64,000 nt of DNA from Mesostigma viride. Its lineage: Eukaryota; Streptophyta; Mesostigmatophyceae; Mesostigmatales; Mesostigmataceae. The translations under genes and the position numbers were made by a program. Of the stretch, positions 36,452-63,170 are shown in pieces (within the stretch, counting starts at the first letter, position 1; the number at the start of each line of letters is the position of its first letter). Below the pieces are notes generated by a model that saw only the letters and a program-made list of their open reading frames with translations, was not told the DNA's origin and did not search any database. Where the stretch lies: contig RPFO01000188.1 of assembly GCA_009746045.1 (NCBI GenBank), forward strand, positions 12,501-76,500, given 5' to 3'.

Positions 36452-38821
36452 CTATGCCCGGGTAAGCTGGGGGGGAGCCGCACGCACCTCTTGGATGATG
36501 GCATCTATGTCAAAATACCCAGAGGCCGGTGGGTCCTCAGTTGTGCGTGCAGCGCGTTCTTGGCGTTGAGCCGCGCGTGCATCGGGAAACACTGCATCTA
36601 CATCATCTGATTCAAAGTACCGCTCACGCGGATTAAACAGGGCTCTTTCAAGGCCGCGTGCTATAGCAGACAAAGAATGTTCACCAAGGCTAGGTTCAAC
36701 CATGATCTCGAATGCAGCTTGTACACGTGGGTAATCAAGGCCCCTACCTGCAAGAAATCTAGCATCTAGCGAGTATCGCCCCGTCTTGAACATGTGGGCG
36801 AGGGTTTTAATCAAGTTTGGACGCAAGCTAATACTATTGTGGTGCTTAAACCAGTATACCGCCGCACGCTCAAGTAAGTTGTAGGCGGTCAAGGAGCACC
36901 GTCCCTTGAGAGTGGGGGATCCGTGTAATAAATATTCTATACGCCCCTCTTCTTTCTCATCCTCATCAATGCCATGGCAATACAAAATCTGAAACCCCTC
37001 CTGCTCTTCCGATTTAAGCAAATAGCCTATCATCCCTGAATAATTCAATTTGTGGCTGGACTTCACTTGGCGTGCCACAAGGCTCGGCTTGGTTTTGTCA
37101 TGTTTTCCCTTTTCATCTATTGGTTCACCCCACCCAAGTTCTTTCTTGAGCTTGAGTTTCACAGCATGGGCCGATGTAGCCTCAACGTCAATGAGCATGT
37201 GGACGTGCTTGTGCATTTCGAGTATTCCTTCCTCCACAATTGACATGCCCTTGCCGCCATTGGCTAGGTGGAAGGCCTCTATCTTGCCAAGCTCATCATC
37301 GTCAAGATCGCGAGCCCCCCCTGAAATGGAGATGTGGAGTGTCATATTTTTTAGCGCCGTAGGCCCACGTGCGCGCTTGGGTTGACGCAATGGGATGTAA
37401 TCGTCAGTTTCGTGTGCTTGATCTTGGTGCTGTTTTTCGACGTTGACTTGCTCATCCGTTGCGGTAGCCTCACGCTCTTGTAGTTGCTGTCTTGCTTGGC
37501 TGTGATGAGAAGGGTACATGAAAAAAAAAAATGCAGATTTTTTGCAAGGATTGTGGTCAAGATTGGTTTAAAGACATAATTAATTTTCAAAGAAAAACTC
37601 ACGTGGACAAGTTTGGCAAGAATACAAGTTGGAAAAAAAAACCCTAGAAAGGATTCAGCGGCTTACCGTCCACGCTTTATCTTGCATGTTACGTGACGGG
37701 TGAGACCAGCTTGGCTCCTGGCAACGAAAGGCGGCTCGCAACAGTTGCACATGAAATTCTGATTTTTAATGGCCCCTTCGCCATCGCTGTCCTCGTCATC
37801 ACCGGAAACACCAGCTTCATCATCTATGAATTTACATCTTTTTGCCCGACGTGGAGGGGGATCCTCTTCGTCAACCTCATCCCCTTCCTCCTCTTCTGCC
37901 ACTTCTTCATCCTCTTCTTGCTCTGCTTCTGGTTCGTCTTCCTTGTCGACATTGTTTTCATCGTCATCCTCGGAGGCATCGTCTAAAATAGCATGCCGCC
38001 CGCGCCGCCGGTGCCTTGTTTCACAGTTTAACTCAGGCACAACGTCGTCCTCAAGAATCTGGAGGTTCGCATGTGCTGGATCCATCGAGTCCCGTTCTTT
38101 GGGATGAACTAGGTGGTCCGGCGTCGTTGGCGGGTGCTGGGCCGGCGTGGTCGTCATGGACGGGGTCGTCATCTGGCGACGGCTCAAAAGCAGGCGTTTC
38201 CTCATTGCGTTCGTCAAAATCGAGGGATCGTTTAGTCCCCTTGCCGGGCCAGGGCGACTTGCCGGCGTTTTGGTCTTGGCCATGTTGTTTTGTGGACGTT
38301 TGTGTTGATGATGATGGGGTTACAGATGACCCCCCAGCAAGCTTGCCGGCAGCAGACAAAACGGAGTTCAATAATTCATCCTCGTCCGCCTGGGACCCCG
38401 TCAGATCCACGCTATCCACCGCTGCCCCTTTATTGATTGCGTTGGAGAGAAGGGGCCCTATTGTCTCAAGTGTCGACAGCACCTCATTTGTTGCATGTTT
38501 GACCACCCCCTCCCACAGTTGTTCCTTTTTGCATAACGCGACTTTCAGCCGCTCTAGCGTCTTGAGTTGGGGTTCTACGGTTGTCTCGTACGCCTTTTTC
38601 ACTTTCTCCTCGCAGAGCTTTTCCTCCCTTGTCTTGAGTTCATGATACCTTGCCTTAGCCGCATTTACATTCTTTGTTTGTACTTGTACTCCTTCGTTGG
38701 CACGGTCCAGATTAAGCTTTTTGTCCCTGATGGCGTTAGTTAAGTCGACTCGCTGCTTGTTTACTTTTCCAACGAGGTCCTTGAAGAGGTCTTGTTGCAC
38801 CAGATTTTTCATCGCCGCCAT
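36452..38821 (-). CDS. HUH Rep protein with zinc finger, Replitron-like
   Basis: Probable transposon endonuclease. The first in-frame ATG is at 38821 (MAAMKNLVQQDLFKDLV). A coiled coil follows (about 38860-38450), then a Ser/Asp-rich linker, a very acidic stretch (about 37990-37830) and a C-x2-C...H-x3-C zinc finger (CNCCEPPFVARSQAGLTRH, about 37760-37690). An intron 37666-37500 (GTAAGC...CACAG) joins KIKRGR to QARQQLQERE in phase. The catalytic domain has HKHVHMLID, a HUH metal site, and GMIGYLLK, a YxxK-type motif with one tyrosine, in the order of Y1 HUH Rep proteins. It is followed by about 170 residues of unknown function. Single-tyrosine HUH proteins in green algae are known as Replitrons; this assignment is from memory of motif layout. 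One frame change near 38110-38050 must be an indel or tiny intron, so this copy may be inactive. Confidence 0.65.
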
Positions 38822-39644: not shown

Positions 39645-42590
39645 TGCGTGTCATGCGCAAAGGCATGCCACGGAGTACTATGCTAATCTCATTAGAAAAA
39701 TAATTACACAAAAGTTTAGACAAATATCGTCTGCATCATTCCCCAAACGTTAAGCACTAGATGGGGATGTAATCCTCATCCGAGCTGTCCTCTACTGTAA
39801 TGGCAGACGAGGCGGTAGTGTAGCGGCTATCCTCAGGACCAATAACCTCCACCTGCGGACTTCTACCCTGGCTAGCAACGGGCCGCGGGGCCCGTGGGGA
39901 GAAAACAGGAGCATACCCCTCGGGGAGGTGCTTATCGCAGATGGCAGCCCATTTCTCCTTGTCAATCATGCGGGCGCGGAGTACGGATAGTCCCAGAAGC
40001 CCTGCATCTTCAAGCAGTTGTGTCACATAGGTCCGGGTCGCGCCGTGCCGGTGCCCGGCGCGCGCAAGTTTGCCAGTGGGTTGCGATGGGACAAGGGGAC
40101 CCTGCCATAGGAGGAGGTGTCTACCTGGTTGGCCCGTCTTAAGCCCCCCGGCAGGGCCCACATCGGTATTCACCTGGTCTGTGCGGGCAAGATGGCCGGC
40201 AAAGAGGAGGCGGCGGTGTCGGATGGTATGGGTGACAAGAGGGAGCTCGCAGTAGAGCTCGGCCCGGGTGCGGCGTTCTTGGTAGCGGACGCCGAGGATA
40301 TGACGGAGCATTCGAGTGACGGTGCCGTCAAGCTGCTGGCTCAGCGCCTGGTCCAGGGTCCACGCCTCGCAGCCATAAAGGAGGATGCTGAGGACAAGGG
40401 CCTTGAACAGAATGCGCTTGCATCGCTCACTCAGGTAGCGACAGGTCCAGAACCTGTCGAGGCGGCGGAGGGCCGCCCAGGCCTGGCCAATGCAGGTGTT
40501 GATGTCGTCGGCCGTGGAGGGAAGCCAGCTGCCAAGGAGCTTGAAGCGAGTCGCCGGGGGGACGGGGCTGCCGTCTAGCAAGAGGAGGGTGGGTGGGGCT
40601 ATCCCAGCAGGGAAGCCGATGGCCATGACCTCCGTTTTCTTGCTGATCATAAGCCCCACCGCCCGCGCTTCCAGTGATAAGCTGTCTAGCCACAGTTGGG
40701 CTGACTCTGGGGTTTCCACGAGTGTCGTGTCATCAGCGTCTACAGATCAGATCGCTCAGGCGGTAGGGTGGGTCAACCCCGCCGTAGCTGGCGTACTCCG
40801 TGACCTCGATCCCCGGCGGGCGCCCCTCCACCCGGGCGAAGCGGGCTTGTGCACGCCGCATAATATAGGCCACCATAATGATGAATAGATATGGGGAGAG
40901 CACACAGCCCTGCCACACCCCGGTGTGCAGGGGAAACGCCGGAGTGACGCCGTCGGCGGTACGGACCTGGGCTTGGGACCCTTCATAGAACTGGCGGATG
41001 GTCTCAACGATGTGCGATGGGACACGGAACAGGTGAAGGACCACCCACAGGGCGTCCCATATAAACGTATCGAATGCCTTGGTGTAATCCACGAAGATCA
41101 ATAGCAATGGCAAGAGGCCGGGGGCCAGGCGGCCCACTTCCTCGATCAGGCGGCGCGCGGTAATAGTGACCATAACACAATTGCGACCAACACGGAAGCC
41201 CATCTGGGACTCACCGGCACCCCTCCACCCCGGCGGGCGCCCCTCCACCCGGGCGAAGCGGGCTTGTGCACGCCGCATAATATAGGCCACCATAATGATG
41301 AATAGATATGGGGAGAGCACACAGCCCTGCCACACCCCGGTGTGCAGGGGAAACGCCGGAGTGACGCCGTCGGCGGTACGGACCTGGGCTTGGGACCCTT
41401 CATAGAACTGGCGGATGGTCTCAACGATGTGCGATGGGACACGGAACAGGTGAAGGACCACCCACAGGGCGTCCCATATAAACGTATCGAATGCCTTGGT
41501 GTAATCCACGAAGATCAATAGCAATGGCAAGAGGCCGGGGGCCAGGCGGCCCACTTCCTCGATCAGGCGGCGCGCGGTAATAGTGACCATAACACAATTG
41601 CGACCAACACGGAAGCCCATCTGGGACTCACCTAGGTGGGGATCGAGGCTGGCGCGCATGCGGTTCAGCAGGAGACGCATGAAGACTTTCAGCACGCAGC
41701 TTTGGAGGCATACGCCGCGGTAGTTGCCGGTATCCGCGGCGGACCCCTTGCCCTTGTACAGCATGACCCGGACAGCGGTCTTCCAATACGTCGGCGGGGG
41801 AGGCCATCTCGTAGAATCCGGTTGCAAACACCCCGGAGGAAAGGCTCAAGCTCAGGCATCTTAACCACCTCCGGTGAAATATTGTCCACTCCCATGGCAG
41901 CATCATTGCGGAGGGTGGAGATGGCAGCAGGCCATTCCTGGGGAGTCCACTCGTCGTGGGGGCCGTCCACCAAGGGGCCGGAGAGCGGTGGGACTAGGTA
42001 GTCCGTCTCGCTGGTGGGCGCCTGCGGGGGCTCAATGGGGCCGCCTCGGCTGGCCGCAGGGCGTGCAGCTGCAGCGGGGTCAAGCGGGGGGGGCGGGCCA
42101 GGGGCCCCTGATAGTTGGGCCTGGGAGCTGAACCAAATCTCAAGGCGTTCACTGGGGGTGCCTGGGATGTCAGCCCGTTGCGTTTCCCGGCGTCCGGTGA
42201 GACGGTCGAGAGAGCGCCAGGCCGCCTTGTGCTGGTTGGCGGCCGTGTGGCGATTGATTTCGGCGGCAAGTGTCTCCACCTCCTCCGCATGTGCGGCAGT
42301 ATATGCTTGAGTAAGCCGTTCCTGGTACGGGTACAGGTCCTCCCCGCGGCGGCGGGCCTGCGCTAGCGCCAGCCGGGCGGCAACCACCCGGGCGTCGCGC
42401 AGGTAGAGCGGGGCTGGTCGGGCGCGGGGTTGCTCGGGGAGAAGCTTAGAGCCAAGCTCCACCGATCGCATGAATAGTTCGTAGGGTGGCGTGAGATCTA
42501 CACCGCGATCTGCGTCCAGGTACATCAAAGGTTGCGCGTCCACGAAGGCAGACCTGATTGCATCGCGGCGTTCTCCCCTGCCTTAAGTAA
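39645..42590 (-). pseudogene. LINE family 1 copy A, ORF2 reverse transcriptase
   Basis: The least damaged family-1 ORF2. On the reverse strand it opens near 42543 (MDAQPLMYLDADRGVDL), passes a pre-RT helical region (DLYPYQERLTQAYTAAHAEE), then RT motif A (LLIFVDYTKAFD), motif B (TGVWQGCVLSPYLF), and a broken YADD box (four extra bases at about 40740 give LICRR and a stop). The C-terminal half is open from 40719 to 39757, with RHRRLLFAGHLARTDQ and the end EDSSDEDYIPI. Such proteins nick target DNA and copy LINE RNA into it; no endonuclease domain is present, so the copy is 5'-truncated. A 417-bp in-frame duplication repeats the RT motifs A-B. Further frameshifts lie near 41810 and 42100. The 3' UTR ends near 39650 (acttgcgtgtcatgcg), a sequence that also borders the element at 42603. 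Confidence 0.9.
40811..41644 (-). repeat. 417-bp in-frame tandem duplication in RT domain
   Basis: The unit at about 40811-41227 is repeated at about 41228-41644 with almost no differences. 417 is 139 codons, so the frame is kept. The protein reads from ESQMGFRVGRNCVMV through motif A and motif B twice. Confidence 0.9.
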
Positions 42591-46849: not shown

Positions 46850-48217
46850 CATAGGTGTCTTGCCCCCCCCCGAGGGCAAGGTGCGCCCGATCGCCTGCGG
46901 TGAGGTGCTCCGCAAGCTCGTGGGCAAAGTGATCTGCCGCCAAAAGGCGCCCGAGCTCCGTGCCTTTTTCTGCCCGCCCCTCGCAGCGGGTGAGACCTCG
47001 GTGGCGGCCCAGCTGGGGGTGACGACTCCAGGCGGGGCGGATATCCTCATCCATTCGGTGCAGGCCTACCTCGAGGCCCACCCCACCCACGCTGTCGTCA
47101 AGGTCGACTGCCACAACGCGTTCAACAGTCTGTCCCGCGCCAGCATGTTTGCGGCCGTCATGGAGTCCTTCGCGGACTTGTACGCTTGGACAGCCGTGTG
47201 CTACGGCCAGCCCGGCCAACTGGTTCACATCATGGAGGACGGCACTCGCGGCGGCCTGCTGTCGCGGTCGGGCACCCAGCAAGGGGACCCCCTGGGACCC
47301 CTGTACTTTGCCGCCCCCTCCAGGGTTGCCTCCAAGCGGTCCATGCTGCCCACCCGGCGGTCGCTATTCAGGCCTACTTGGATGATATCTACCTTCTGGG
47401 CCCTGTGCCGGACACCACCGCGGCTCTGCTGGCACTGCAGACCGCGGTGGCCGACATCAACCTCCAGTTGACCCTTGCCAAGTGCGCGGTGTACTCGCCC
47501 CAAGGTGATTGCTCCGGCTTTCCGCCCCAGCTCTTGGGCCGGGACGAGCGCCTCCATGGGTTGGATGTCCTCGGCGTTCCGGTTGGGGACCCCGCGTTTG
47601 TCATCGATGCTCTGCGGGCCGCCCTCGAGGCACGCACTGAGGTACTGCCCTTGATTGCGCGCCTTCATGATTCGCAGACCAAGGGTCTGCTTCTGTGGTT
47701 TTGCGCTCACCCTCGCGTCGTTCACTGGCTCCGGGGCGCTCTTCCGTCTCAGGTCCGGCTGGCCGCCGAGGGCCACGACGAACGCATCCAGTCGGCCTTG
47801 GCGCAGCTGGTCCCGGGCCCCGACCTCCCGCCACATGCTATTCGCATTGCCTCCCTGCCTGCACGGATGGGTGGCTGCGGTCTGACTCGTGCCGCCCGGC
47901 TGGCCCCAGCAGCCTTTTTGGGCTCCGTCGCTCAGTCGTGGGCGGAAAGCTGCCGGCTCCTGCCCCTTTTGGCAACGGCAGCGCCTGACCTCCTGGACCC
48001 CAGCAGCCCTTTGCCCTTCGTCACCGCCATCCAGGAGGCCTATGCTGAGATCCAGCAGGCCTGTTCTCCCGTCCGTGCCGCTCAGGCGGTACAGCGCCAC
48101 CTCCCTCGCGGCACTCCCTCGGTCGCCTCCGTTCAATCTCCCGCCGCATTCCCTGCTCGCGTCATCGATAAACACCAGAAAACCTACGCGGGTATTCTGC
48201 ACACGGCTGATTGGATT
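46850..48217 (+). pseudogene. RLE-type LINE copy D1, RT part (5' of insertion)
   Basis: A second LINE family. The RT domain has VRPIACGEVLRKLVGKVI, motif A VVKVDCHNAFNSLSR, motif B RSGTQQGDPLGPLYF and, after a one-base frameshift near 47320, motif C QAYLDDIYLLGPVPD. A thumb-like region continues to HTADWI, where a DNA transposon interrupts the codon series after the ATT at 48215-48217. The rest of the protein resumes at 58167. QGDPLGP plus a downstream restriction-like endonuclease places it with R2/CRE-type LINEs. It is 5'-truncated: it starts within the RT, right after tatatatattcctac (about 46833-46847). Confidence 0.88.
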
Positions 48218-48248
48218 GAGTTGTTGCGCTGGATTAGGACAAATTGCG
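48218..48248 (+). repeat. Left terminal inverted repeat
   Basis: Starts GAGTTG at 48218 and continues through the 25-bp core. Two bases further in, 48251-48271 (atttaggacacttttgatgc) has a 20/21 match at 58112-58132 in direct orientation, just inside the right end. The core and this motif share ttaggaca, a possible transposase-binding word. Confidence 0.9.
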
Positions 48249-48938
48249 AAATTTAGGACACTTTTGATGCCGACTCAAGATAATAAGTTGATTTGGGTCC
48301 CTTTTACGGGCCAATATGTGGCTGACATTGATTCCCTACGTATTCAACTGTTTTCAACCTATTTGGTACCACCCTGCAGGACATTTACCGGGTGATGCTC
48401 GTGACGGTGCCCTTCATGATGTCATGCTTACTTCCATATAATGCATGAGCGTGGACACGATGACTTTAATGCGCGGAACGTGATTGTATTTGCCAGGGAA
48501 GTGTACCATGCAGTAATTTCATACAATCTTCTCACATAATGCATGAAGTCCTCCCCGGGCATGGAAACATTTCAATACCAACAATGAATTTTGAGGTAGT
48601 GATGTAGCATGCATGCACTTGGGTGTACTGAGCTATTGGTGCTAACACATGCCGCCAATTATAATGGCCAAGGTGCATGTATAATATTTTAAAATGTCCA
48701 AAGAGACATTGTTGGGCGTGCATGGCTAATAACGCCCTTATTATCAATCAGTCCAATATCCTGGACTAGACAGCTCCGCGGCTTTTGCGCCGAGTTCCTC
48801 TTGAACAAATTATACTCTAGCCTACCATGACCGGGACGCCCAGATAATTAATAGCATGTTGCATCCGTGCAACACATAGCCTAGATATAGTGTCAATGGA
48901 ATGCCATATCAAGAAACGGTTGCTTCACATGAAAACGG
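48249..48938. other. Left non-coding arm of the transposon
   Basis: No gene is seen. It is AT-rich, with repeated cataatgcatga words (about 48437, 48535). It would hold the terminator of the PHD gene, which ends at 48939. Confidence 0.5.
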
Positions 48939-51181
48939 TCAGTAGTAACGAGGTTGCGGCAATGGTGCCGGCTGCCATGCCAATGTCATCGAGGGAGGCT
49001 GCTGCCAAGCGGCAGCCGCTGATGTCGCCGGTGCCGGTGGCTGTTGGTACCATCCCGCGGCTGCAGTTGCTGGTGGCTGCGCGTATGGTGCCGGCGTGTA
49101 TGGTGCCGGCGCATACTGTGGCTGCGTCAACGGTGCCGGCGCGGTTGCCGGTGCCAGGACCTGCTGGTACCATCCTAGTGCTTGTGCCGGTGGCTGCGCA
49201 TACGGTGCCTGGGCGGCTGCCGTTGGTGGCGGGTAAAGCGGTGCCGCCGCGGGTGCCGGTGGCGGCGGGTAATAAGGCGGTGCCGCCGCGGGTGCCGGTG
49301 GCGGCTGGTAAAGCGGTGCCGCCGCGGGTGCCGGTGGCGGCGGGTAATAAGGCGGTGCCGCCGCGGGTGCCGGTGGCGGCTGGTAATAAGGCGGTGCCGC
49401 CGCGGGTGCCGGTGGCGGCTGGTAATAAGGCGATGCCGCCGCGGGTGCCGGTGGCGGCGGGTAATAAGGCGGTGCCGCCGTGGATGCCGGTGGTGGCGGG
49501 TAATAAGGCGGTGCCGGCACGGCTGCTGGTGGTGGCAGGCAAGGCGGTGCTGTCGCCGGTGCTGGTGGTGGCAGGGCTTCTGGCGGCGGGGCCTCGGCTG
49601 CCGGTGCCTGCTGCTGCCGCCTCCCCTGTCGTTGCTGCTGCGGCGGCGGCTGCTGTTGCTGTTGCTGTATTTGCTGCATTTGCTGCAGCAGCAGCCGCTG
49701 CTGTTGTTGCTGCTGTTGTTGTTGCTGCTGCAACTGCTGCTGGAGTTGTCGGTGCTGCTGCTGGACCTCTTGCAGAAGCTGGGCCTGCTGCTGTTTCATA
49801 CCCTCCAGTTGTGCCTGCACTTCTGTTGGTACTCGCGTTGTGCCGGGCAGGGCCTCCTGCAACGGCTGCGGCCCCGGGCGCCGTTTCTCCGGCTGGCGCT
49901 TCTTGGCATCTGGGGGGGGGGCTGGAAGGCCTGCTTGGCGGTGATTCGCTTCGCTCGCCCTAGCCCGGCGTTGGTGATATCCGTGAGCGGTGCCGGTGCC
50001 GCATCGGTCATGGTGGTGTCTTGTGTCCGCCGTTCTCGGGATGGCGTATCAGGAGAACCACACAGATCCATCGTGGCCCGCTGCGGGAATGCGTTACTGA
50101 GCAGGATGCTTGGGACGGGCGCATTGCCCATCAGGGCAACTAAATTGGGCTCGTTCTCCTGGGCCCACGTCAAACACTCCTGCATTTCATCATTCCATGC
50201 GTTTGCAGGGATGGATTTACCCGGAAACGTTACACCAGGGACATCGCACCACTTGGGAGGGTTGTTGGCCACGATGAGTGCCACTTGGTTGTGGAAGTGG
50301 ATGCCGGTGGGTGCGGGCCTGGTCATGGAAGGAGTAAACGAACATAGCAACGACTTGTAGCTCGAATTCTTCGTTTCGCGGGCTAACAGAGCGCTCATGG
50401 TCTTGTTTTTCCAGCCGCCCAAAATGATGCCGACATTTTGCCTCCATGGGTGAAGGTTCACGACGGCCCGAGCCATGATCCCGCATTCGGCCCTAAAACC
50501 AGGAACCCCGCCCCCCACAGATATGGTGCTCTCATTTCGACCTTGGACCGGCATTGTCTTGAGCACCGGTGGATCAGGTGAAGGAAATTTCAATGTCATC
50601 TTGGCATCCTCCAGCTCGGAGCGACTGAACCCTTTGCCACGCTCGTCGGCCGGGGTACTTTCCATCACGTTGTCAATGGAATTGTCCCCCGTCAGGTCGG
50701 AGGAACCCAGGTGTGCACCACGGCTGGCCGGATCGTCATCGCCACTGTCGACCATCTTGTCGTCACTGTCATTCTTGTCGTCACGGTCCTTTTTATCCCC
50801 GGCAACCTTGCCCTTCCCGCCCAAATTACTATGAAGATCTACCATCCCCGCCAGGTCATCCTCGGAAACTGGAGCATTAAAGTTGATGCCGGCCGGGAGG
50901 GGGGGACGTGGGTTGTTGCCGACATGATGAGTCGCTTCCTGGTCTTGCTTGGACGACCCAGCAAAACATTCGGGGCACATCCATTCTGCCCCTTCTTCAG
51001 CACTTGGGTCCTTGAATAGCCCCGTGCATATCCCATGGACGTGCTTTCCACACGACCCACTGCATGGGTGATTGGCGCCACTCAAGAGCTCCTCCTTAGA
51101 AACGCCATCCTCGGATGCTCCGCCTCCCAATTTCCTACACTTTTCGCCTGCAAAGCAGGCATCACCGTTGCTCTCTGACAT
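48939..51181 (-). CDS. PHD-finger protein with Gln/Pro-Tyr-rich tail
   Basis: ATG at 51181 (MSESNGDACFAGEKCRKLGG). A PHD-type C4HC3 zinc finger fills residues about 9-76 (CFAGEKC, CSGSCGKHVHGIC, WMCPECFAG). PHD fingers usually bind histone H3 tails. A charged linker is followed by a conserved-looking core (FRAECGIMARAVVNLHPWRQ, VALIVANNPPKWCDVPG) of unknown fold. A ten-C run at 49912-49921 shifts the frame; one more C would join AFQPPP to DAKKRQPEKRR and continue to 48939, about 750 residues in all. The tail has poly-Gln (about 49790-49640) and about ten PYYPPPPAPAAA-like repeats. The run is probably a recent or sequencing indel. It is divergent from the DDE gene and 1.2 kb away. Function is unknown; tethering the transposition complex to chromatin is possible but unproven. 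Confidence 0.75.
48990..49560 (-). repeat. PPYY-coding minisatellite
   Basis: Units of about 54-60 bp (core ggtgccgccgcgggtgccgg) repeat some ten times. They encode the Pro/Tyr/Ala tail of the PHD protein; the open frame on the other strand is a shadow. Confidence 0.9.
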
Positions 51182-51399
51182 TTATTACTCACTTTTCCGC
51201 AGCACTACTCATTGCTTCCGGCATTATCGCCAACAATCGTTTAGCCGCACCGAATACCATCGTTTCCGGCGTTAAATTCATTCCAAGACGGAGGCACTGG
51301 CTGGAGCCCCGGCTCAGGCGGGAGATCCGGCGTTTGAATGAGGTGACAGTTGCGGATCCCAGGCATTATAGTATCTCCGAAGCCAGGCTTCGTGTCCGT

Positions 51400-51950
51400 T
51401 TCCTAGTACAAGGCATCGTATCTCCGCAGACAAGGTTTTCCCCAGCGGAGGCCAGGCATCGTATCGCCGCGGACAGGTTTTTCCATAGCCGAGGCAGGCA
51501 ACGTATAAATTATTCCCCAGCCGAGCCTGCCGAGGCCAGGCATCGTATCTCCGCGGACAAGGTTTTCCCCAGCGGAGGCCAGGCATCGTATCTCCGCGGA
51601 CAAAGTTTCCGTAGCCGACACAGGAATCTTATAAAATATTCCCCAGCCGAGCCTGCCGAGGCCAGGCATCGTATCTCCGCGGACAAGGTTTTCCCCAGCG
51701 GAGGCCAGGCATCGTATCTCCGCGGACAAGGTTTCCGTAGCCGAGGTAGGAATCTTATAAAATATTCCCCAGCCGAGGCCAGGCATCGTATCTCCGCGGA
51801 CAAGGTTTCCCCAGCGGAGGCCAGGCATCGTATCTCCGCGGACAAGGTTTCCGTAGCCGAGGCAGGCAACGTATACAATATTCCCCAGCCGAGGCCAGGC
51901 ATCGTATCTCCGCGGACAAGGCTTCCCCAGCGGAGGCCAGGCATCGATAC
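51400..51950. repeat. Minisatellite between the two transposon genes
   Basis: A core of about 30 bp (gccaggcatcgtatctccgc, then ggacaaggttt) occurs about nine times at alternating spacings of roughly 42-50 and 70-80 bp. Two connector types alternate: ccccagcgg and ccgtagccgag...aatattccccagccga. It lies between the divergent starts at 51181 and 52371, so it may act as promoter or transposase-binding array. Confidence 0.88.
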
Positions 51951-52370
51951 AGTAGCTCGACCTAAACTGTACACTGTAACCTGATGTGCGTGAGAGGTAC
52001 GCCGAAGGCATGATGATTGTCTGTCAAGCAACGCCACGCTGTCATCAGTGCTATTACAATGTCTTAAAGAGGTGCTGCAGGTGAGACAACCGGCTGCTAA
52101 TAATCTGCTGTAGCGTTTGTTGTGCGAATTAAAAATTTTGCAGGGGACGAATCATTGGTATGAAATGCGGATGCTATTAAATGGTGACAGAAGCAGACAG
52201 GACCTAGACTAGAGGTGGCCAATCTACGTGACATAACCAGTTGTGGCTAGGTAGTAATGGTAGGGTAGCTGCGTCCAGGTACCTTGGTTTGAAGTTTCTA
52301 GTATCGCAGTCTGTTGGGAATCCAGGTTGTTGCGTTTACAGATAGGGAGAATGCTGACGGAGTAGGCACA

Positions 52371-55300
52371 ATGGACGATGACGCAGTGGATCCGGATGTG
52401 CTAATGTGGGATGGCAGATTGGATGACGGGTGGGATGCCGACGATCCCGATTACGAATTTTCATTCCACGATGGCGTACAGGAACCGCCAACTGAAGCCA
52501 AACGTCCTGGCAAGCAGAGAACAGACGCGCTTCGTGAGCAGAAGCTGGCTGCTGTTACGGGCGACATGGCGAAGCGGTATTGTTGCACAGAGCAGCGCTG
52601 CCTTCACCAGTTTAACAGTTACCTCGTAGACCACAGGACCTGGACAGCCGTGCGCCAGGAATTTTACAGCCATCCTGACAAGGCGCGCATGGCAACCCTG
52701 GCTGACATCATCCGATCAGGTGGGGTAGGCAGCATTGAGGTGAAGCCCCCCGGCCCAGGTGGTCAGTACCACCACATCAGATTCAAAAGTCCATTGCATG
52801 TGGATGTGCACGTCGACGGCGCCACGCGCACCATCAGCGGGTGTGCGACTGCAATCCGCAAAGTGTTGGGCGTGGAGCCAAAAACCTGGAACAAGGTGGT
52901 GAAGGGGGTCGCCTACAGCAAGCAGTTTTTCGATGCGGTGGACCGTGACACCCTGACCAGTCATGGATTGCCGGGTGTGTGCCACGAGGAGACTCCGCGC
53001 CGGACGCCTGTCGCTGGGCGCTCTAGTGCCACGGAGTACGCTGCTACCTGGATCTGCCGGCTGGTGAGCGAACTGGGGGACAGCGACCCCGCCCACCCGG
53101 ATGTTGCCTACATGGATGTTATCCCCATCACCGACATGCACCAGCTCTACGTGGCCGATGCCAAGCTCGAGTTCCCTGGAGATGAGTATAATAGAGGCCG
53201 CTCGATGATCCTGAAGTACCGGGCGTTCCATGAGGTGTGGACCGCGTTCTGCGAGGGCAACTACTTCCAGGGGTCGCCCAAGGTCATCTTGAAGACGAGC
53301 GCCAAGAACGTCGGGCAGTGCGCGACCTGCGTCGAGTTGCGGCACCTGCACACCCATGCGTCGGACAAAGCACAGCGGAACTACATCGCTCATCTCACCA
53401 AGGCACACCTCGCCCTGGTGAGGTTTGCGCGCCAATTGTACTGGCAACGGCGCGACTTGGCCCTGCTGATGCTCTTGTGGATTTCACTCTGCATTGACAA
53501 GATTGACCATGCGAAGACGTACTTTCCTAAGCTGGTCAACGGCCCATCCTCCTGGCAGTCCCACGCGAAGAGCATGGTGCAGTTTTCACTCTTCTGCGTA
53601 TGCGCGCACGCGTACAAGGCATTCTGGTTTCCCGTCCTGCCATGCGTGCTCCTAGATGAGGGCCTCTCAGGTAGCGTCACTGTCACGATGCTGATGCACG
53701 TGTTACTATGCATGATACGTGATGCCCCGTGGAGGCGGCTCGGCAATAGAAGCATGCCACGCTGCCTAGTCCTGCAAATGGACGGCGGTTCTGAAAACCG
53801 CAACTACACAGTCCTTCTCTGGGCGTGGTGGCTCGTCCATGTGGGGCTCTTTGACGTGGTGGAGATGCACCGCATGCGGCGAGGGCACACGCATGCAGAC
53901 TGTGACCAAAAGTTCGGGGTGCTGGTCGGGTACATGGACCACGGCGTCGGCGCGAGAGCAAAGAAGTCCAACATATTCCCCACGATGGAGAGCTGGGAGC
54001 AAGCAATTCGAGACGCGTTCCACGGCATCAGCAACGCCACGGTGCCAGAGGGCGTGGATGTGCAGTGGCTGGGTGAGGTATACGATGTCCAAGCGTTCCT
54101 CGTGTGGCTGAAAGCCTCCAAGTTCGAGAAATGGTGCAGGTCACGCGACTGGTGCGCCGCGGTGGGGAAGGAAGAGTCTGAGAAAGTAGGGCAATCTATG
54201 AAGCCGCACCATGTCGTGTTCTTCAAGGTGGTGGGAAATGACGAGGTGTGGATGGCGTACCGCTTCACCGAGTCGAAGCGAACTCCATGGCAGCCCGCTG
54301 GGGTGCGCGATGAAGACGCGCCGCGGAGCGGCAGGGCACGCATGCACCCCTACAAGCACGACGACGCGGGGAAGCCTCTGTTCGGGGTCCGCGTGGTGGA
54401 TCCGGACCTGGTCGCTAATTTGGAAGACACTCCCAAGACGGCGCCACTCGACATGCGCTTTTTTGACAGGGAGCTCGTCAAGATCCAGAACGCGGTGGCA
54501 TCCCTGCCCAGCAGCTGGCAGTCCTTCTTCAATGCCACGGACATCCAGCCCACCGTCAAGTTTTTGAAGGAGGCTGAACAGTTCCCGGACAAGATGCCCA
54601 AGAAGTTGCAGCCTTTGCCATGGCCAACGCGTGCAGAAATCGCAGCAATGCGTGATCGTGAGGCTGCCGCGGCTGCGGCTCAACCGGCTGTGACCCAAGC
54701 GGACATCACAACAGCCCTCATTGACGAGGCGGCGCTCCGGGCAGCGCCGTTGGTAGACCCTGTCTGCCACGATGGTCGCACGCGTGCGGAGTGGGTGGAG
54801 GAAGACCGCGCGTTTGGGGCCAAGGTGGCATTCGAGGAGCGCCTCAAGGGCGTGCAGGCTGGCTCGCCTGTTATATACAAGCATCCCAATGCCGACATGC
54901 TCTGCAACTCTGAACTGCCATGGACCCCTGTACTGTACGGGGAGGTGAAGGAGGTGCATCAGGGCAGCGAGGAGGGCGCTGAGCCTCATCTTGAGGTGTA
55001 CGTGTACCGCGCCAAGCACTTGCGCGACTCGTGGCACCCATGGATACCTGACGTGGCTGTATGGCCGCATCCACCATCTGCCAACGTGGACCGCCACGTG
55101 GTGACCATCCCGGCATCGGCCCTTGTCCTCACCCATTGGGCGCCACCCAGCAAGCGGAAGTCCCTTCCCGTCCGCTCAGTGTCCTTGGATGCTAAGAAGA
55201 AGCTCACCAAGGACAGTTGGAACGCGCTCAAGCTGGTGCCATGTGACGCAAGTCGCCCTGCTATCGACTGGCAAGCGGTCTCCACCACAGCGGGTATGAG

Positions 55301-55742
55301 GCGCCTGACTGGAACACGCTGGGAGGACATTTTGAAGGCGGTGAAGAGCGGCGGGCGCTGCCTGGTGGGGCAAGTCGTGTGCCAGTGGGCAATCAAGCAC
55401 GTGCGAGACGAGCATGGCAACCTGGTGAAGAACCAGAAGGAGAGGTTCCATGGCCGCGTCGCGGTCGTCAATACCCAGCATGACATGGTGGGCCTATTCT
55501 GGGGTGCGCATTGGGAGGAAGAGGCCGTGAGCACCGTGGCACTCCCTGAGCTAGGAGGAGTGATCTGTGCATGCCCAGGTGTTAAAGTCCCTGAACTTCA
55601 GGCATCCGAGATCGCCAGGGCTGAAGACTACCTACGCGCACACGCCGCCGGCGCGCCGGCTGCCAAGCCTACCAACCGTTCGCGCGCGCGCGCCCGCGGC
55701 GCGCAGGCTGCTGCTGCGGAGGAGGCGGGTGGGGTTGATTGA
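52371..55742 (+). CDS. DUF7869-like DDE transposase candidate
   Basis: Start chosen at ATG 52371 (MDDDAVDPDVLMWDGRLDDG); the frame is open further upstream without ATG. 1,123 codons to a stop at 55740. Order (numbered from 52314): acidic head, a Cys/His region (YCCTEQRCLHQF), a core fold (VILKTSAKNVGQCATCVELR), then three acidic motifs: CIDKIDHAK (about 393), LVLQMDGGSENRN (about 487) and RRGHTHADCDQKFG (about 523). This D...DxxxxEN...GHTHxDxD pattern is that of the DUF7869 family found in eukaryotic genomes, with an RNase H-like DDE layout. About 600 residues follow (LTHWAPPSKRKSLPVRS; HDMVGLFWGAHWEEEA). A one-base shift near 55700-55750 would join the end to an acidic and Arg-rich tail in another frame running to 56493. 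Cutting and joining the element's ends is the expected role, supported by the inverted repeats. Confidence 0.8.
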   Translation: MDDDAVDPDVLMWDGRLDDGWDADDPDYEFSFHDGVQEPPTEAKRPGKQRTDALREQKLAAVTGDMAKRYCCTEQRCLHQFNSYLVDHRTWTAVRQEFYSHPDKARMATLADIIRSGGVGSIEVKPPGPGGQYHHIRFKSPLHVDVHVDGATRTISGCATAIRKVLGVEPKTWNKVVKGVAYSKQFFDAVDRDTLTSHGLPGVCHEETPRRTPVAGRSSATEYAATWICRLVSELGDSDPAHPDVAYMDVIPITDMHQLYVADAKLEFPGDEYNRGRSMILKYRAFHEVWTAFCEGNYFQGSPKVILKTSAKNVGQCATCVELRHLHTHASDKAQRNYIAHLTKAHLALVRFARQLYWQRRDLALLMLLWISLCIDKIDHAKTYFPKLVNGPSSWQSHAKSMVQFSLFCVCAHAYKAFWFPVLPCVLLDEGLSGSVTVTMLMHVLLCMIRDAPWRRLGNRSMPRCLVLQMDGGSENRNYTVLLWAWWLVHVGLFDVVEMHRMRRGHTHADCDQKFGVLVGYMDHGVGARAKKSNIFPTMESWEQAIRDAFHGISNATVPEGVDVQWLGEVYDVQAFLVWLKASKFEKWCRSRDWCAAVGKEESEKVGQSMKPHHVVFFKVVGNDEVWMAYRFTESKRTPWQPAGVRDEDAPRSGRARMHPYKHDDAGKPLFGVRVVDPDLVANLEDTPKTAPLDMRFFDRELVKIQNAVASLPSSWQSFFNATDIQPTVKFLKEAEQFPDKMPKKLQPLPWPTRAEIAAMRDREAAAAAAQPAVTQADITTALIDEAALRAAPLVDPVCHDGRTRAEWVEEDRAFGAKVAFEERLKGVQAGSPVIYKHPNADMLCNSELPWTPVLYGEVKEVHQGSEEGAEPHLEVYVYRAKHLRDSWHPWIPDVAVWPHPPSANVDRHVVTIPASALVLTHWAPPSKRKSLPVRSVSLDAKKKLTKDSWNALKLVPCDASRPAIDWQAVSTTAGMRRLTGTRWEDILKAVKSGGRCLVGQVVCQWAIKHVRDEHGNLVKNQKERFHGRVAVVNTQHDMVGLFWGAHWEEEAVSTVALPELGGVICACPGVKVPELQASEIARAEDYLRAHAAGAPAAKPTNRSRARARGAQAAAAEEAGGVD

Positions 55743-56493
<751 letters not shown>

Positions 56494-58111
56494 TCGTCTT
56501 GGTCTTCAATCAGCACGTGGTAGTAGTTTTTTTTTTTGTCGCCGTGCAATTTTGCTTTCTTCATATGTGATGTGTGCCATGGACATTTCTCCGGCTGGCT
56601 TTCTGCATAGATCTGACACGTATTGGATTCACTGGCAACATATCTTGTATATTACCATATACAATTGACAATGTGTGTTGTTCTTGTCTTTATCCTGCTG
56701 TTGCGGCTGTTATATGCTGTTGCGGTTGTACCACTGTCCTGAACTCATTCCCTTCGTGCCATTCACGCTACCGTGTTTGCTACTGCCACTTATGCTCCGT
56801 GGTTGCCCATTGCGATTCCAGGGATCATGGATGGGGCCAGTGCTGAGGAGGGGGGTTGCACGTGGAATACGTCTCTGGTGCTGCAAGCATTATTAGCTGC
56901 ATCTTCACGTGTCGCTGTTTTTTATTCTTGCACATCATGGCTGGTGGGGCCTGCGGGGGGCTGGGCTCCGACATATTTTGTGGCATATATGCCAAACCAT
57001 TATTATGTTTCACCGTTACTTCCCTCCCACCTGCCTCGGCCTTGTGTGCCAGGCAGGGGACGAACCGGTTTTACTGACATGCGTGACTGAAGCGGTGTCG
57101 GGACGTAGTATTCCACAGGGAGTGGCAATGTCTCTTCGAAGCCACTGGGTTAGATCATATGCCCGGGCCAGGGTTGCATTTCCAGGCCTGTATGGCTGGC
57201 TCCCCTGCATGGCTAGCACTTGGATCTCCCAAATTTGATCAGTCAACTGATTTGATGCTTTGACAACTACAATGAAGTTATAATGGCTGGGTCACCAATG
57301 ATGTTATGACTCGTTGTCATCACTGCAAGCAATGTGCTATAGTTGCTGCAACCCTCGCGCACTTGCAATGGCCATTGAACATGCGTTAAACCACTATGCG
57401 CCAATTTGCTCTTGCCGCGTGCCGTAACTGCCCGAGTGCCACGGTCTTACATCATCCTTGCTACCGGTGCTATTGCGGACACCCTCGTGATTCATGCACT
57501 GAACCGTTGTTTGCTTCTGGCACTACTGCGTTTTTATAAACCGCGTAGCTAGCTAGCTAGCTGCTGCCGTCGCCATTAGGCGGGGCGATGATGCTCGTTG
57601 CTCCTTGATTCAATTGGTGCCCACTGCGGTTGCTCCCAAGTAGCATCCATCTTTGGTTCAGTTTGTTGTGATCAGTCGAGACGCATGGGAGCTTGATCCA
57701 ACACATGCATTGTTGGTATATAACATACTCCGCAAAGCCGCGAAGCCGCGACCCTGTGCGTTAGCTAGCAGACCTGGCGGCACCTGTGATCCTAATACAT
57801 GGCATAATCCCGCGTGCAAACTTTGCCGGACTCAGCATGGTCTCTCCACTGAATTGATATTGATACATGCATGAAAGATGTTTATTTCAGCCAGACAATG
57901 AATTATGAATGCATTATATGTATTATTATCATAGGATCTCAGCATCTTCAATCATGATGCCATGTCGGAGACAGTGTGTATAGCAAATATGCATTACAGC
58001 ATGGAATACTTTCCTTGAAACACAAGCGCTGATTAAAATTTCTTGACAAAACTTGTTAAAACATATTCTGAAATGCTCCTGGCATAAAAAAACCATGTTT
58101 GCCAACTTTTC
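56494..58111. other. Right non-coding arm of the transposon
   Basis: No gene is seen in about 1.6 kb. It contains a (GCTA)n run at 57547-57562 and many ttgctactgc/ttgcgg words. It should contain the 3' UTR of the DDE gene and the right subterminal region. Confidence 0.55.
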
Positions 58112-58135
58112 ATTTAGGACACTTCTGATGCCTTC

Positions 58136-58166
58136 CGCAATTTGTCCTAATCCAGCGCAACCACTC
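58136..58166 (-). repeat. Right terminal inverted repeat
   Basis: Exact reverse complement of the left core, then one mismatch (58162) and GAGT at the tip. The 21-bp subterminal motif lies at 58112-58132. Confidence 0.9.
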
Positions 58167-59125
58167 ATTGCTCTTTTCGCGGACCTCAACGCTCAGGGAC
58201 GTGCGTGGCTGTTCTCGCTTTCCTTGCGGAGTGTGGGCTCGGCGTACCTTCGTGCTCTTCCCATGGCCCCCCCATTCGCCTTGGCTCCCAGCCCCTACTC
58301 GGTGGCGCTCCGGCACCAGCTATTTGCCCCGCAGCCTCTTGTTCCGGCCGGGCGGCCTTGTGGTAGCTGTGGGCAGCCGCTGGATCCCACGGGGACTCAC
58401 TACCTTGCCTGCATGGGGGGCCAACAGAATCAGAATTGGTATTTGTATTTGCACACTGTCCTCCTGACGGTGGTGCTCGCCATGATTCGGTCGGTTTTCC
58501 CCCACGCGAACATCCGGTCCGAGGATGCGGATGGCGCTGCCTTCTATTCCCCAACCACCGGCCTGACATCGTGGTGCTGGACTTTGAGGGGGGTGGCCGG
58601 CATCTGCTTATTGACGTTTCGGTGGCGCGGCCCTTGGCTCTTAGCCACGTGGCTGGGGCCTCCCTCACGGCAGGTTACACGGCGGACCGGGCGGAGCGGG
58701 CCAAGCTCCTGGCCTACGGCGACGTCGGGCACCATCGTGTGGTGCCCTTTGTCCTGGAGGAGTTTGGGGCCATGGGGCCCCTGACCTCCGCCTTCTTCAA
58801 GGAGTGTTGCCGGCTCCGGGAGGACCGGCTGGACCTGGAGGGCCAGCGGGCCCCATGGTCGGCGCGGACCTGGACGTCATATTGGCGTCAGCGCTTGTCG
58901 GTGGCGCTGACTCGGGCCATGGCTGACATCATGCTCCGCCGTACGCGGGCTGATTTTGCGGCGCAGCAGGGCTATTAGGTTCCTCCCGTTAGGCGTTTCC
59001 ATTGGTCTTATCGTAGTATAGAGCTTTGACATGGCTCTGTATATAGGTTTATAGCTGGGCGTTTGCTTTGGTTTGAGTGATTTCACTCTGCTGTAAGTAA
59101 TTATATTTTTAATATATATTCCTAC
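58167..59125 (+). pseudogene. RLE-LINE copy D1, endonuclease part (3' of insertion)
   Basis: Resumes the interrupted LINE protein at ALFADLNAQGRAWLFSLSLR. A CCHC-type zinc knuckle (CGSCGQPLDPTGTHYLAC) is followed by the restriction-like endonuclease core (NHRPDIVVLDFEGGGRHLL, then IDVSVARPL), whose RPD...D-x-xV pattern is the PD-(D/E)XK active site of R2-like LINEs. One C is missing in tattccccaac near 58550 compared with copy D2 (tattcccccaac), splitting the frame. The end is MLRRTRADFAAQQGY, stop at 58978. A 3' UTR of about 145 bp ends in tttttaatatatattcctac. Confidence 0.88.
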
Positions 59126-59221: not shown

Positions 59222-60660
59222 TGTCACGTCCGTGATCATTTACGTCCGTGCACTCAAGAAGTTACGCGGTTCGGAATCGTTACCGACGTTTGGTTGGTTC
59301 CGATTCAGTAGGCCGCAGGCTTTGTTCCTTGGGCCGGTGTGGAGCGCCGCGCCGGAAAGGCCTGAATTTCTAGAGTGACAGTCTTAGGTGACCTGACTTA
59401 GGTTCAGGCGCAAGACTTTGGGGCGCAAAGCCTTGGTGGCTTGCGCAATATTCCGGTGCGTGACATTTGGCAGTTATGAATCTTTTGTATTGTTCAGACG
59501 GAATGATGTTCAGTCCATCTGACAAAGCTAGATACGCAGATCGTAGTGTGCGGTGTGCTGGCTCGCACGTGGTTGTCGAACAGACTTGCTCTGCATTTTG
59601 CTGGCAGTCTAACTGCACGTCAGGCGGCTTGCTGGCAAATGCGACAGCGCATGGATGCCGGGATTTTTGGAGGTATTTAGGAGCAGCGCAGCGGCCATGG
59701 TGGTCGTTGTTCGCTCGTTTCTCTCCCTCACAACTAGTTTGTTGTCTTCATGGGGTTAAACTTCTCGAACAGCCCGGAGCAGCCCCCGTGAGTGGTTGCA
59801 TGTCGTTGCCATGACGATGGTTGATAAGATTGACAATGGTTTGATCCGGTTGGGATGTTGTTGGCATTGTGGACGAGAAACGTTCTGCTGACCCGGGAAC
59901 AGTCCCGGGAAAGGGCCGGTTCGTCGTTGGCCAGTGTGCCAGTAACTGGGACATGAGCGCAGAGTCACACAGTTGATATAGATTATGACGTAAGTAAACA
60001 CTGTTGCGCCACAGTGGCGTCATGGTCGGTCTGTGGTGATTTCGATGGGTCTCAAGGATATGTAGTTACTCTTACAGTTGCGGCAGCACAACTCGGCATT
60101 CATTGTAATTTGTCAAATGTTATGGAATGAATGGTTTGGGCATTGCTTTCATCATAAAGCATTATTGCAATCTTCATAATATAAATATCGGCTGGCTGCG
60201 CTGCCTGTCATGAAGGTGGTGGTGCCGTCAAGGACCACACCTATCATTTCCACATTATTTAAACGAGCGAACAACCCTTGGCGGGTTCAGTTCGGACAGC
60301 CTGAGCCGGAGATATACCCAAGCTGCTTGCAGAATCAAGCACTTGGAAGAGGATTAAGCTTATCCTTTAAAAAGCTATGAAGAGGATTAGGCTTATCCTT
60401 GAAAAAGCCATGAAGAGGATTATGCTTATCCTTGAAAAAGCACTGAAGAGGTTATTGCTTAGCCTATTTGAAAAGCATGTGTGGTCCTGTCGTGGGAATT
60501 TTTTTTTCCCTATGTGATCCTCTTTTTGACTTTTTGGCTCTTCATTTTTTCGAGCTAAAAAGTGGGGGGGAATATAGTGGATCACACACAAGAGTACTCT
60601 ATTGCTATGGATATGCCTTCCAAGTGATAGGCTAGGATATAATGGCACGCAAACGCGACA
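59222..60660 (+). mobile_element. LTR-like unit 1 of 3
   Basis: 1,439 bp, begins TGTCACG and ends CGCGACA, i.e. TG...CA ends in a short inverted repeat. It contains a TATA-like ataaatat (about 60182) and three near-copies of gaagaggatta.gcttatcc (60348-60460). A 115-codon frame (59467-59814) is present in all three units but looks like nothing known. GCCG flanks the whole array (59218-59221 and 63171-63174), a 4-bp duplication typical of retrovirus-like integrases. No gag/pol or primer-binding site lies between units. A TIR-type DNA element is the alternative. Confidence 0.7.
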
Positions 60661-60662
60661 GC

Positions 60663-62115
60663 TGTCACGTCCGTGATCATTTACGTCCGTGCACTCAAGA
60701 AGTTACGCGGTTGCCGTAATCGGAATCGTTACCGACGTTTGGTTGGTTCCGATTCAGTAGGCCGCAGGCTTTGTTCCTTGGGCCGGTGTGGAGCGCCGCG
60801 CCGGAAAGGCCTGAATTTCTAGAGTGACAGTCTTAGGTGACCTGACTTAGGTTCAGGCGCAAGACTTTGGGGCGCAAAGCCTTGGTGGCTTGCGCAATAT
60901 TCCGGTGCGTGACATTTGGCAGTTATGAATCTTTTGTATTGTCCAGACGGAATGATGTTCAGTCCATCTGACAAAGCTAGATACGCAGATCGTAGTGTGC
61001 GGTGTGCTGGCTCGCACGTGGTTGTCGAACAGACTTGCTCTGCATTTTGCTGGCAGTCTAACTGCACGTCAGGCGGCTTGCTGGCAAATGCGACAGCGCA
61101 TGGATGCCGGGATTTTTGGAGGTATTTAGGAGCAGCGCAGCGGCCATGGTGGTCGTTGTTCGCTCGTTTCTCTCCCTCACAACTAGTTTGTTGTCTTCAT
61201 GGGGTTAAACTTCTCGAACAGCCCGGAGCAGCCCCCGTGAGTGGTTGCATGTCGTTGCCATGACGATGGTTGATAAGATTGACAATGGTTTGATCCGGTT
61301 GGGATGTTGTTGGCATTGTGGACGAGAAACGTTCTGCTGACCCGGGAACAGTCCCGGGAAAGGGCCGGTTCGTCGTTGGCCAGTGTGCCAGTAACTGGGA
61401 CATGAGCGCAGAGTCACACAGTTGATATAGATTATGACGTAAGTAAACACTGTTGCGCCACAGTGGCGTCATGGTCGGTCTGTGGTGATTTCGATGGGTC
61501 TCAAGGATATGTAGTTACTCTTACAGTTGCGGCAGCACAACTCGGCATTCATTGTAATTTGTCAAATGTTATGGAATGAATGGTTTGGGCATTGCTTTCA
61601 TCATAAAGCATTATTGCAATCTTCATAATATAAATATCGGCTGGCTGCGCTGCCTGTCATGAAGGTGGTGGTGCCGTCAAGGACCACACCTATCATTTCC
61701 ACATTATTTAAACGAGCGAACAACCCTTGGCGGGTTCAGTTCGGACAGCCTGAGCCGGAGATATACCCAAGCTGCTTGCAGAATCAAGCACTTGGAAGAG
61801 GATTAAGCTTATCCTTTAAAAAGCTATGAAGAGGATTAGGCTTATATATATCCTTGAAAAAGCCATGAAGAGGATTATGCTTATCCTTGAAAAAGCACTG
61901 AAGAGGTTATTGCTTAGCCTATTTGAAAAGCATGTGTGGTCCTGTCGTGGGAATTTTTTTTTCCCTATGTGATCCTCTTTTTGACTTTTTGGCTCTTCAT
62001 TTTTTCGAGCTAAAAAGTGGGGGGGAATATAGTGGATCACACACAAGAGTACTCTATTGCTATGGATATGCCTTCCAAGTGATAGGCTAGGATATAATGG
62101 CACGCAAACGCGACA
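60663..62115 (+). mobile_element. LTR-like unit 2 of 3
   Basis: 1,453 bp, almost identical to unit 1, separated from it by only GC (60661-60662). Differences: an eight-base insertion gccgtaat at about 60713 and six extra bases (atatat) at about 61844. Confidence 0.75.
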
Positions 62116-62117
62116 GC

Positions 62118-63170
62118 TGTCACGTCCGTGATCATTTACGTCCGTGCACTCAAGAAGTTACGCGGTTCGGAATCGTTACCGACGTTTGGTTGGTTCCGAT
62201 TCAGTAGGCCGCAGGCTTTGTTCCTTGGGCCGGTGTGGAGCGCCGCGCCGGAAAGGCCTGAATTTCTAGAGTGACAGTCTTAGGTGACCTGACTTAGGTT
62301 CAGGCGCAAGACTTTGGGGCGCAAAGCCTTGGTGGCTTGCGCAATATTCCGGTGCGTGACATTTGGCAGTTATGAATCTTTTGTATTGTTCAGACGGAAT
62401 GATGTTCAGTCCATCTGACAAAGCTAGATACGCAGATCGTAGTGTGCGGTGTGCTGGCTCGCACGTGGTTGTCGAACAGACTTGCTCTGCATTTTGCTGG
62501 CAGTCTAACTGCACGTCAGGCGGCTTGCTGGCAAATGCGACAGCGCATGGATGCCGGGATTTTTGGAGGTATTTAGGAGCAGCGCAGCGGCCATGGTGGT
62601 CGTTGTTCGCTCGTTTCTCTCCCTCACAACTAGTTTGTTGTCTTCATGGGGTTAAACTTCTCGAACAGCCCGGAGCAGCCCCCGTGAGTGGTTGCATGTC
62701 GTTGCCATGACGATGGTTGATAAGATTGACAATGGTTTGATCCGGTTGGGATGTTGTTGGCATTGTGGACGAGAAACGTTCTGCTGACCCGGGAACAGTC
62801 CCGGGAAAGGGCCGGTTCGTCGTTGGCCAGTGTGCCAGTAACTGGGACATGAGCGCAGAGTCACACAGTTGATATAGATTATGACGTAAGTAAACACTGT
62901 TGCGCCACAGTGGCGTCATGGTCGGTCTGTGGTGATTTCGATGGGTCTCAAGGATATGTAGTTACTCTTACAGTTGCGGCAGCACAACTCGGCATTCATT
63001 GTAATTTGTCAAATGTTATGGAATGAATGGTTTGGGCATTGCTTTCATCATAAAGCATTATTGCAATCTTCATAATATAAATATCGGCTGGCTGCGCTGC
63101 CTGTCATGAAGGTGGTGGTGCCGTCAAGGACCACACCTATCATTTCCACATTTCCACATCAAACGCGACA
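62118..63170 (+). mobile_element. LTR-like unit 3 of 3, internally deleted
   Basis: Again separated by GC (62116-62117). Matches units 1 and 2 to tcatttccacat at about 63152, then jumps to the last ten bases aaacgcgaca, so about 400 bp is deleted. The deletion joint lies in a ttccacat repeat. Confidence 0.75.

Follow-up and report, generated by a model that had tools for sequence, protein, structure and literature searches.

Genes and features of the locus

The window, by which we mean the whole 64,000-nucleotide stretch of Mesostigma viride DNA analysed here, contains a DNA transposon inserted in a LINE, the features of which are collected in Table 1. Its left end (GAGTtGTTGCGCTGGATTAGGACAAATTGCG) and right end (GAGTgGTTGCGCTGGATTAGGACAAATTGCG) are inverted copies of each other over 31 bp with a single mismatch, and share a perfect core of 26 bp; the initial annotation had the overall length and the mismatch right, but gave the core as 25 bp. 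In a repeat comparison within the window the arms at 48217-48251 and 58133-58167 were 94% complementary, and a 23-bp piece of the core, allowing up to three mismatches, occurred twice in the window, both times at the element ends, and never in 100 shuffles. The termini read GAG..CTC and are bordered on each side by ATT, as had been noted from the start. Four copies of the motif TTAGGACA occur in the element, two of them at the left end and two at the right.

Table 1. Features of the transposon and its insertion site (window coordinates)
Feature	Position	Strand	Basis or remark
DNA transposon, whole	48218..58166	.	9,949 bp; other copies and LINE empty sites
Target site duplication ATT, left copy	48215..48217	.	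Sequence read, other copies, LINE empty sites
Target site duplication ATT, right copy	58167..58169	.	Sequence read, LINE empty sites
Left inverted repeat	48218..48248	+	31 bp, 1 mismatch to right repeat
Right inverted repeat	58136..58166	-	31 bp; supported by right ends of other copies
Two TTAGGACA motifs, same direction	48234..48260	+	48234 in repeat, 48253 just inside; proposed transposase sites
TTAGGACA at 58114 and reverse complement at 58143	58112..58150	.	Mutually inverted; proposed transposase sites
PHD-like second gene	49799..51181	-	461-aa frame; below Pfam cut-off
Continuation of PHD-like gene as in sibling C1956	48939..50048	-	Other frame in window copy; one 735-aa frame in C1956
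Direct-repeat array between the divergent genes	51411..51946	.	Repeat comparison
DUF7869 gene, proposed transposase	52371..55742	+	1,123 aa from ATG; PF25273 at residues 436-577
Acidic and arginine-rich tail	55743..56493	+	Out of frame with window transposase

The two genes are divergent, the PHD-like gene reading from 51181 on the reverse strand and the DUF7869 gene from 52371 on the forward strand. In a Pfam search the product of the latter matched DUF7869 (PF25273) with 53.7 bits (cut-off 26, E 2.5e-14), which confirms the first assignment of this protein. For the second gene, which had been called a PHD-finger protein, matters are less simple: in a sequence search of the PDB the best three of 16 matches are indeed PHD fingers (E 0.0025-0.0075), but the Pfam score of 17.4 bits, or 21.5 bits for a 100-aa piece, lies under the cut-off of 24 and involves the second half of the profile only.

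Several other features of the window lie outside this transposon. A 1,725-aa open frame at 22493-27670 (+) encodes a Helitron protein with Helitron_like_N and PIF1 helicase matches, and a 371-aa frame at 36452-37567 (-) matches Replitron_HUH (PF21859) with 28.3 bits against a cut-off of 28.5 (E 2.5e-6), and is a likely replitron endonuclease. An exact 405-bp tandem copy lies at 40811-41632 within a reverse transcriptase frame (RVT_1 118.5 bits, in two stretches). Beyond the transposon there is a tandem duplication at 59222-63152, in which 59222-61705 and 60663-63152 are 99% identical and each unit carries the same 125-aa frame save for one change.

Empty sites in the host LINE

The LINE that received the insertion has a reverse transcriptase Pfam match of 20.1 bits, under the cut-off of 29.6. 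Both of its flanks were joined with one ATT retained, and the resulting 282 bases were searched against the genome, giving 23 LINE matches from 23 candidates. The junction was crossed without a transposon in 20 of these: 16 spanned all 282 bases (five at 100% identity), and another four crossed it partially or at lower identity. Three matches did not cross the junction, namely the window itself, C1535 and C1502. We considered C1535, where the match begins at the ATT, as a second insertion and rejected it, since it is a mosaic LINE copy without a transposon. Most LINE copies are thus continuous at the insertion point, and therefore the insertion duplicated one ATT, in agreement with the continuity that was originally read across the site once the element and one ATT are removed.

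Other copies with the same ends

A query of 186 bases from the left end retrieved 46 candidates in the genome, 40 of which were scored. Fifteen of the 40 were near-identical, matching the whole query or all but its first few bases at 95-100%, and 22 were diverged, with 82-94% identity over roughly the initial 93 to 120 bases; the remaining three were partial or right ends. Similarity starts at base 48218 in 20 further places whose flanks were inspected, and these flanks differ, with the exception of C2074 and C1635, which have a flank in common and are possibly one locus in duplicate. With the right end as query, 12 matches outside the window were full-length (40 of 45 candidates scored), and these ended at 58166 or at most three bases beyond. 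Other copies therefore have their ends at the same bases as the window element.

Both ends could be paired at 25 loci, and the 3-bp flanks were identical in 23 of them, comprising 18 different triplets. Among the near-identical left ends 13 of 15 were paired, 11 of the 13 with identical flanks (ATT, CCA, TCG, TTC, CTC, ATG, TTG, TGG, ATA, CAT and AAT); for the other two left ends, in C1635 and C1802, there was no right end among the matches listed. Pairing succeeded for 12 of the 22 diverged left ends, always with identical flanks (12/12). The two paired loci with unequal flanks are C1690 at 3,733,516 (GTG/AGT) and C1502:2525391-2541220 (CAT/ATT), a discrepancy that might stem from recombination between copies. 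One might suppose that chance or misassembly produced the inverted repeat, the ATT pair and the LINE continuity, given these two loci and a genome repeat content of 66% as reported in PMC6947507, yet the same borders recur in differing flanking sequence at many loci, and the LINE empty sites together with the 3-bp duplications elsewhere contradict such an origin; we dropped this explanation, to which we assign a negligible probability. The initial annotation had named three observations that would speak against it, i.e. no second copy with these ends, LINE copies lacking continuity at this point, and ends of other copies mapping elsewhere; none of the three was made, and its interpretation is supported.

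Some paired elements exceed 10 kb, such as those in C1591 (about 31 kb) and C335 (about 46 kb), and from partial alignments we read their extra DNA as putative nested insertions. At the other extreme, six of the diverged elements that were paired measure about 2.5-2.6 kb, and no DUF7869 match was listed there among the 150 of 275 candidates scored, which suggests that these short elements moved in trans. Two further arrangements were seen: C2034:1216304-1247582 has 31,279 bp between family-related ends with ATT on each side, its first 10 kb being without a longer match to the window element, and L048:330-3473 is a related 3.1-kb element that has GAA at either border and has inserted just within another of the family's left ends.

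Variation of the two genes among copies

Matches to PF25273 are numerous in this genome: of 275 candidates, 150 were scored and all 150 exceeded the cut-off, while none of 14 control genomes had a match. Matches with equal scores form groups, which point to about five DUF7869 families (A-E), the window element belonging to family B; families B, C and E were read, and ends were mapped in two of the five or so (B and E). The most abundant score group is that of 62-63.5 bits, with frames often of 1,200-1,770 aa.

The proposed transposase gene of nine family B siblings is 99.67 to 99.94% identical to that of the window (two were compared over part of the gene), and this near identity suggests that the family has moved recently. 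Reading frames nevertheless vary between copies. Measured from stop to stop, the transposase frame has 1,146 aa in the window, 1,384-1,508 aa in seven of 13 family B entries and 220 to 1,268 aa in five others, and the acidic, arginine-rich tail that is out of frame in the window continues the transposase frame in four siblings: C2074, C1668, C1690 (3,733,516) and C887. Because its frame is shorter than in those seven members, the window copy may be non-autonomous, so that the original description of a complete transposon holds for the structure (ends, duplication and genes) but not for the length of the transposase frame. The PHD-like frame has the same 461 aa in the window, C2000, C1668 and C887, 735 aa in C1956, and 261 aa in C1446 and C1690 (3,733,516); in C2074, C1635 and C1406 no frame of at least 250 aa was seen. 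Low-complexity tracts make it possible that some of these frame differences are assembly errors.

A second DUF7869 family with different ends

Family E (L070) has a 32-bp inverted repeat without likeness to that of family B, termini that read CCC..GGG, and a length of 8,906-8,907 bp in two copies. Thirteen loci were sampled, and in all ten that had both ends the 3-bp flanks were identical; of the other three, C1835 had no right end where one was expected, C1568 had no left end, and one locus in C2 was sampled at its right end. The DUF7869 gene of family E is related to that of family B (26% identity; E 4e-5 for the C-terminal part). Upstream of it there are divergent frames resembling a second gene, the larger of which has no detectable relation to the PHD-like gene of family B (E 0.89). 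Inspected by eye, the ends of family E have the same kind of motif asymmetry as those of family B, built from another motif, GTACATT. The tie between DUF7869 and a mobile element with mapped ends is strengthened by this family.

Our main argument for the function of DUF7869 follows from the comparison, since families B and E share neither the repeats nor a recognisable second gene, but both have a DUF7869 gene and both make 3-bp duplications. On sequence grounds DUF7869 is thus very probably the transposase of these elements. Alternatively, DUF7869 could be cargo or an accessory, with the product of the second gene, or an enzyme acting in trans, as the mover. Such a scenario draws on the presence of a second gene in both families and on the circumstance that catalysis by DUF7869 is deduced; the second genes of the two families are, however, not recognisably related and their repeats differ, whereas both have DUF7869 and the same duplication length, and the Pfam search of the window element found no transposase-like domain besides DUF7869. 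We regard this alternative as improbable.

Returning to DUF7869 as the transposase, we propose D376, D471 and D510 or D512 of the window protein as its catalytic residues. Three aspartates are spaced D-x94-D-x38-D in family B, D-x92-D-x38-D in family C and D-x101-D-x38-D in family E, with another aspartate two residues after the third, and the alignment around the second and third reads QxDGG and GHTHxDxDQ. A spacing of D-x(92-101)-D-x38-D fits a DDE/D enzyme, so that the "DDE" of the initial annotation is consistent with three aspartates conserved across families B, C and E, as judged from motif and spacing. No relevant relative of the transposase was found by sequence search in the PDB.

Relatives of the proposed transposase

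Most of the transposase, used as a protein query, gave no relatives. When the search was restricted to the core, it retrieved P0001, a protein of M. viride itself (Mesvir1/12432, EukProt) with 34% identity to the window transposase over 781 aligned columns. P0001 is encoded by family C, in which a 753-aa genome frame is, by eye, the same as P0001 from about residue 46 to the end. In the same family the frame that follows the transposase (L069:5073-5753, +) has a weak match to a PTM/DIR17 Tudor domain (20.3 bits, cut-off 27.2), and this match is absent from the corresponding pieces of families B and E. A profile of the two sequences added P0002 (Prorocentrum lima 5094096, EukProt), which has no Pfam label, is 53% identical to the window transposase over one third of the query, and stops before the second aspartate; in one alignment P0002 shared 48% identity with the window transposase, whereas the figure for family C of the host itself was 37%. 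The presence of this relative in a dinoflagellate dataset may reflect horizontal transfer or contamination. Both P0001 and P0002 are DUF7869-type proteins like the window transposase, but are without mapped ends.

Neither the protein nor the terminal repeat core had relatives in viral contigs, none were found in prokaryote genomes, and searches of PHROGs and NCBIfam returned nothing useful. In the open-access literature, a scope that leaves most subscription papers outside, we found no paper naming DUF7869 or PF25273.

Comparison with known transposon superfamilies

Three features of cut-and-paste transposons were observed here: many copies carry terminal inverted repeats that map to the same positions, the target duplication has a fixed length (3 bp in 23 of 25 paired loci of family B and in 10 of 10 of family E), and the target is uninterrupted in other LINE copies. 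The question is whether the DUF7869 elements are diverged members of an already named superfamily with 3-bp duplications (EnSpm/CACTA and relatives, Harbinger, or another one such as Zator or Academ), in which case the Pfam label alone would be new. In favour of such an assignment, EnSpm likewise makes 3-bp duplications and has elements that reach about 10 kb (PMC12730594, PMC12477816). As described in PMC12730594, the CMCT group (EnSpm/CACTA, Mirage, Chapaev, Transib and Plavaka) is marked by a C(2)C after the second D and mostly by 5'-CA..TG-3' termini. In contrast, no CxxC follows the second D in the frames read from families B, C and E, and the termini of families B and E, GAG..CTC and CCC..GGG, are not CA..TG. 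Moreover, no Pfam family other than DUF7869 had any weight in three sequences searched at E up to 10. CMCT membership was rejected on the missing C(2)C, the other termini and this absence of a Pfam match.

The KDZ group (Kyakuja, Dileera and Zisupton) is known in algae and has large elements with long transposases (PMC12477816), to which the present elements are alike in both respects; Kyakuja and Zisupton duplications are, however, 7 or 8 bp long according to PMC12730594, as against 3 bp here, and KDZ membership was rejected on this length together with the absent Pfam match. PIF/Harbinger elements have 3-bp duplications and two genes, again as here, and are described as inserting at a TNA, ANT or TA target (PMC12477816, PMC12730594). 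The DUF7869 elements follow no TNA or ANT rule, and Harbinger membership was rejected on the 18 different triplets among 23 loci as well as on the absent Pfam match.

ProtoRAG and RAG1-RAG2 form a two-gene DDE element that makes 5-bp duplications, and vertebrate RAG2 carries a PHD finger. Two genes, the second of them PHD-like, are a point of likeness, and the divergent orientation of the genes and the 3-bp duplications of the window element are points of difference; we saw no sequence relation between the two systems.

Pfam is a partial substitute for Repbase, so that a match to some less known superfamily, such as Zator, Academ, Dada or IS3EU, is possible, and we give assignment to a named superfamily a real, if clearly minor, chance. 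We lean instead towards the DUF7869 elements being a separate and previously undescribed superfamily of eukaryotic DDE/D transposons, set apart by way of Pfam and published descriptions. Such a superfamily would be characterised by 3-bp duplications with no strict target preference, by inverted repeats of 31-32 bp at the ends, by a divergent accessory gene, and by a motif repeated just inside the ends, direct at one and inverted at the other; in an early-branching alga of the streptophytes its copies would number in the hundreds, and it would include non-autonomous relatives that moved. The element is probably a new lineage within a well-known kind of transposon, and is well documented at the DNA level.

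Proposed mechanism and implications

Taken as a whole, the observations are, with good confidence, explained by a recently active cut-and-paste family that has a DUF7869 transposase, a 3-bp stagger and a PHD-like accessory protein. The DUF7869 protein would recognise the inverted ends and probably belongs to the DDE/D enzymes with an RNase-H-like fold; TTAGGACA, given its two occurrences per end, is a likely candidate for the recognition site. The asymmetry of the motifs, which are direct at the left end and inverted at the right, may allow the two ends to be told apart. The transposase would excise the element and insert it where the two target strands are nicked 3 bp apart, and this stagger would give rise to 3-bp duplications without a strict sequence. 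As for the divergent PHD-like protein, it may be an accessory, and our guess is that it perhaps tethers the complex to chromatin. Transposases of the same type would drive family E with its different ends, while related elements that have the same ends as family B probably moved in trans.

A domain of unknown function thereby gains a likely function and a mobile context; ends, duplication length and gene content were determined for two families, for one of which there are also empty sites. Since near-identical copies exist, the activity of the transposon is directly testable. Repbase listed 24 superfamilies (PMC12730594), and the DUF7869 elements may add a further lineage to these. If our interpretation is true, DUF7869 genes elsewhere in eukaryotes would be transposases or their domesticated descendants, and could be annotated as such.
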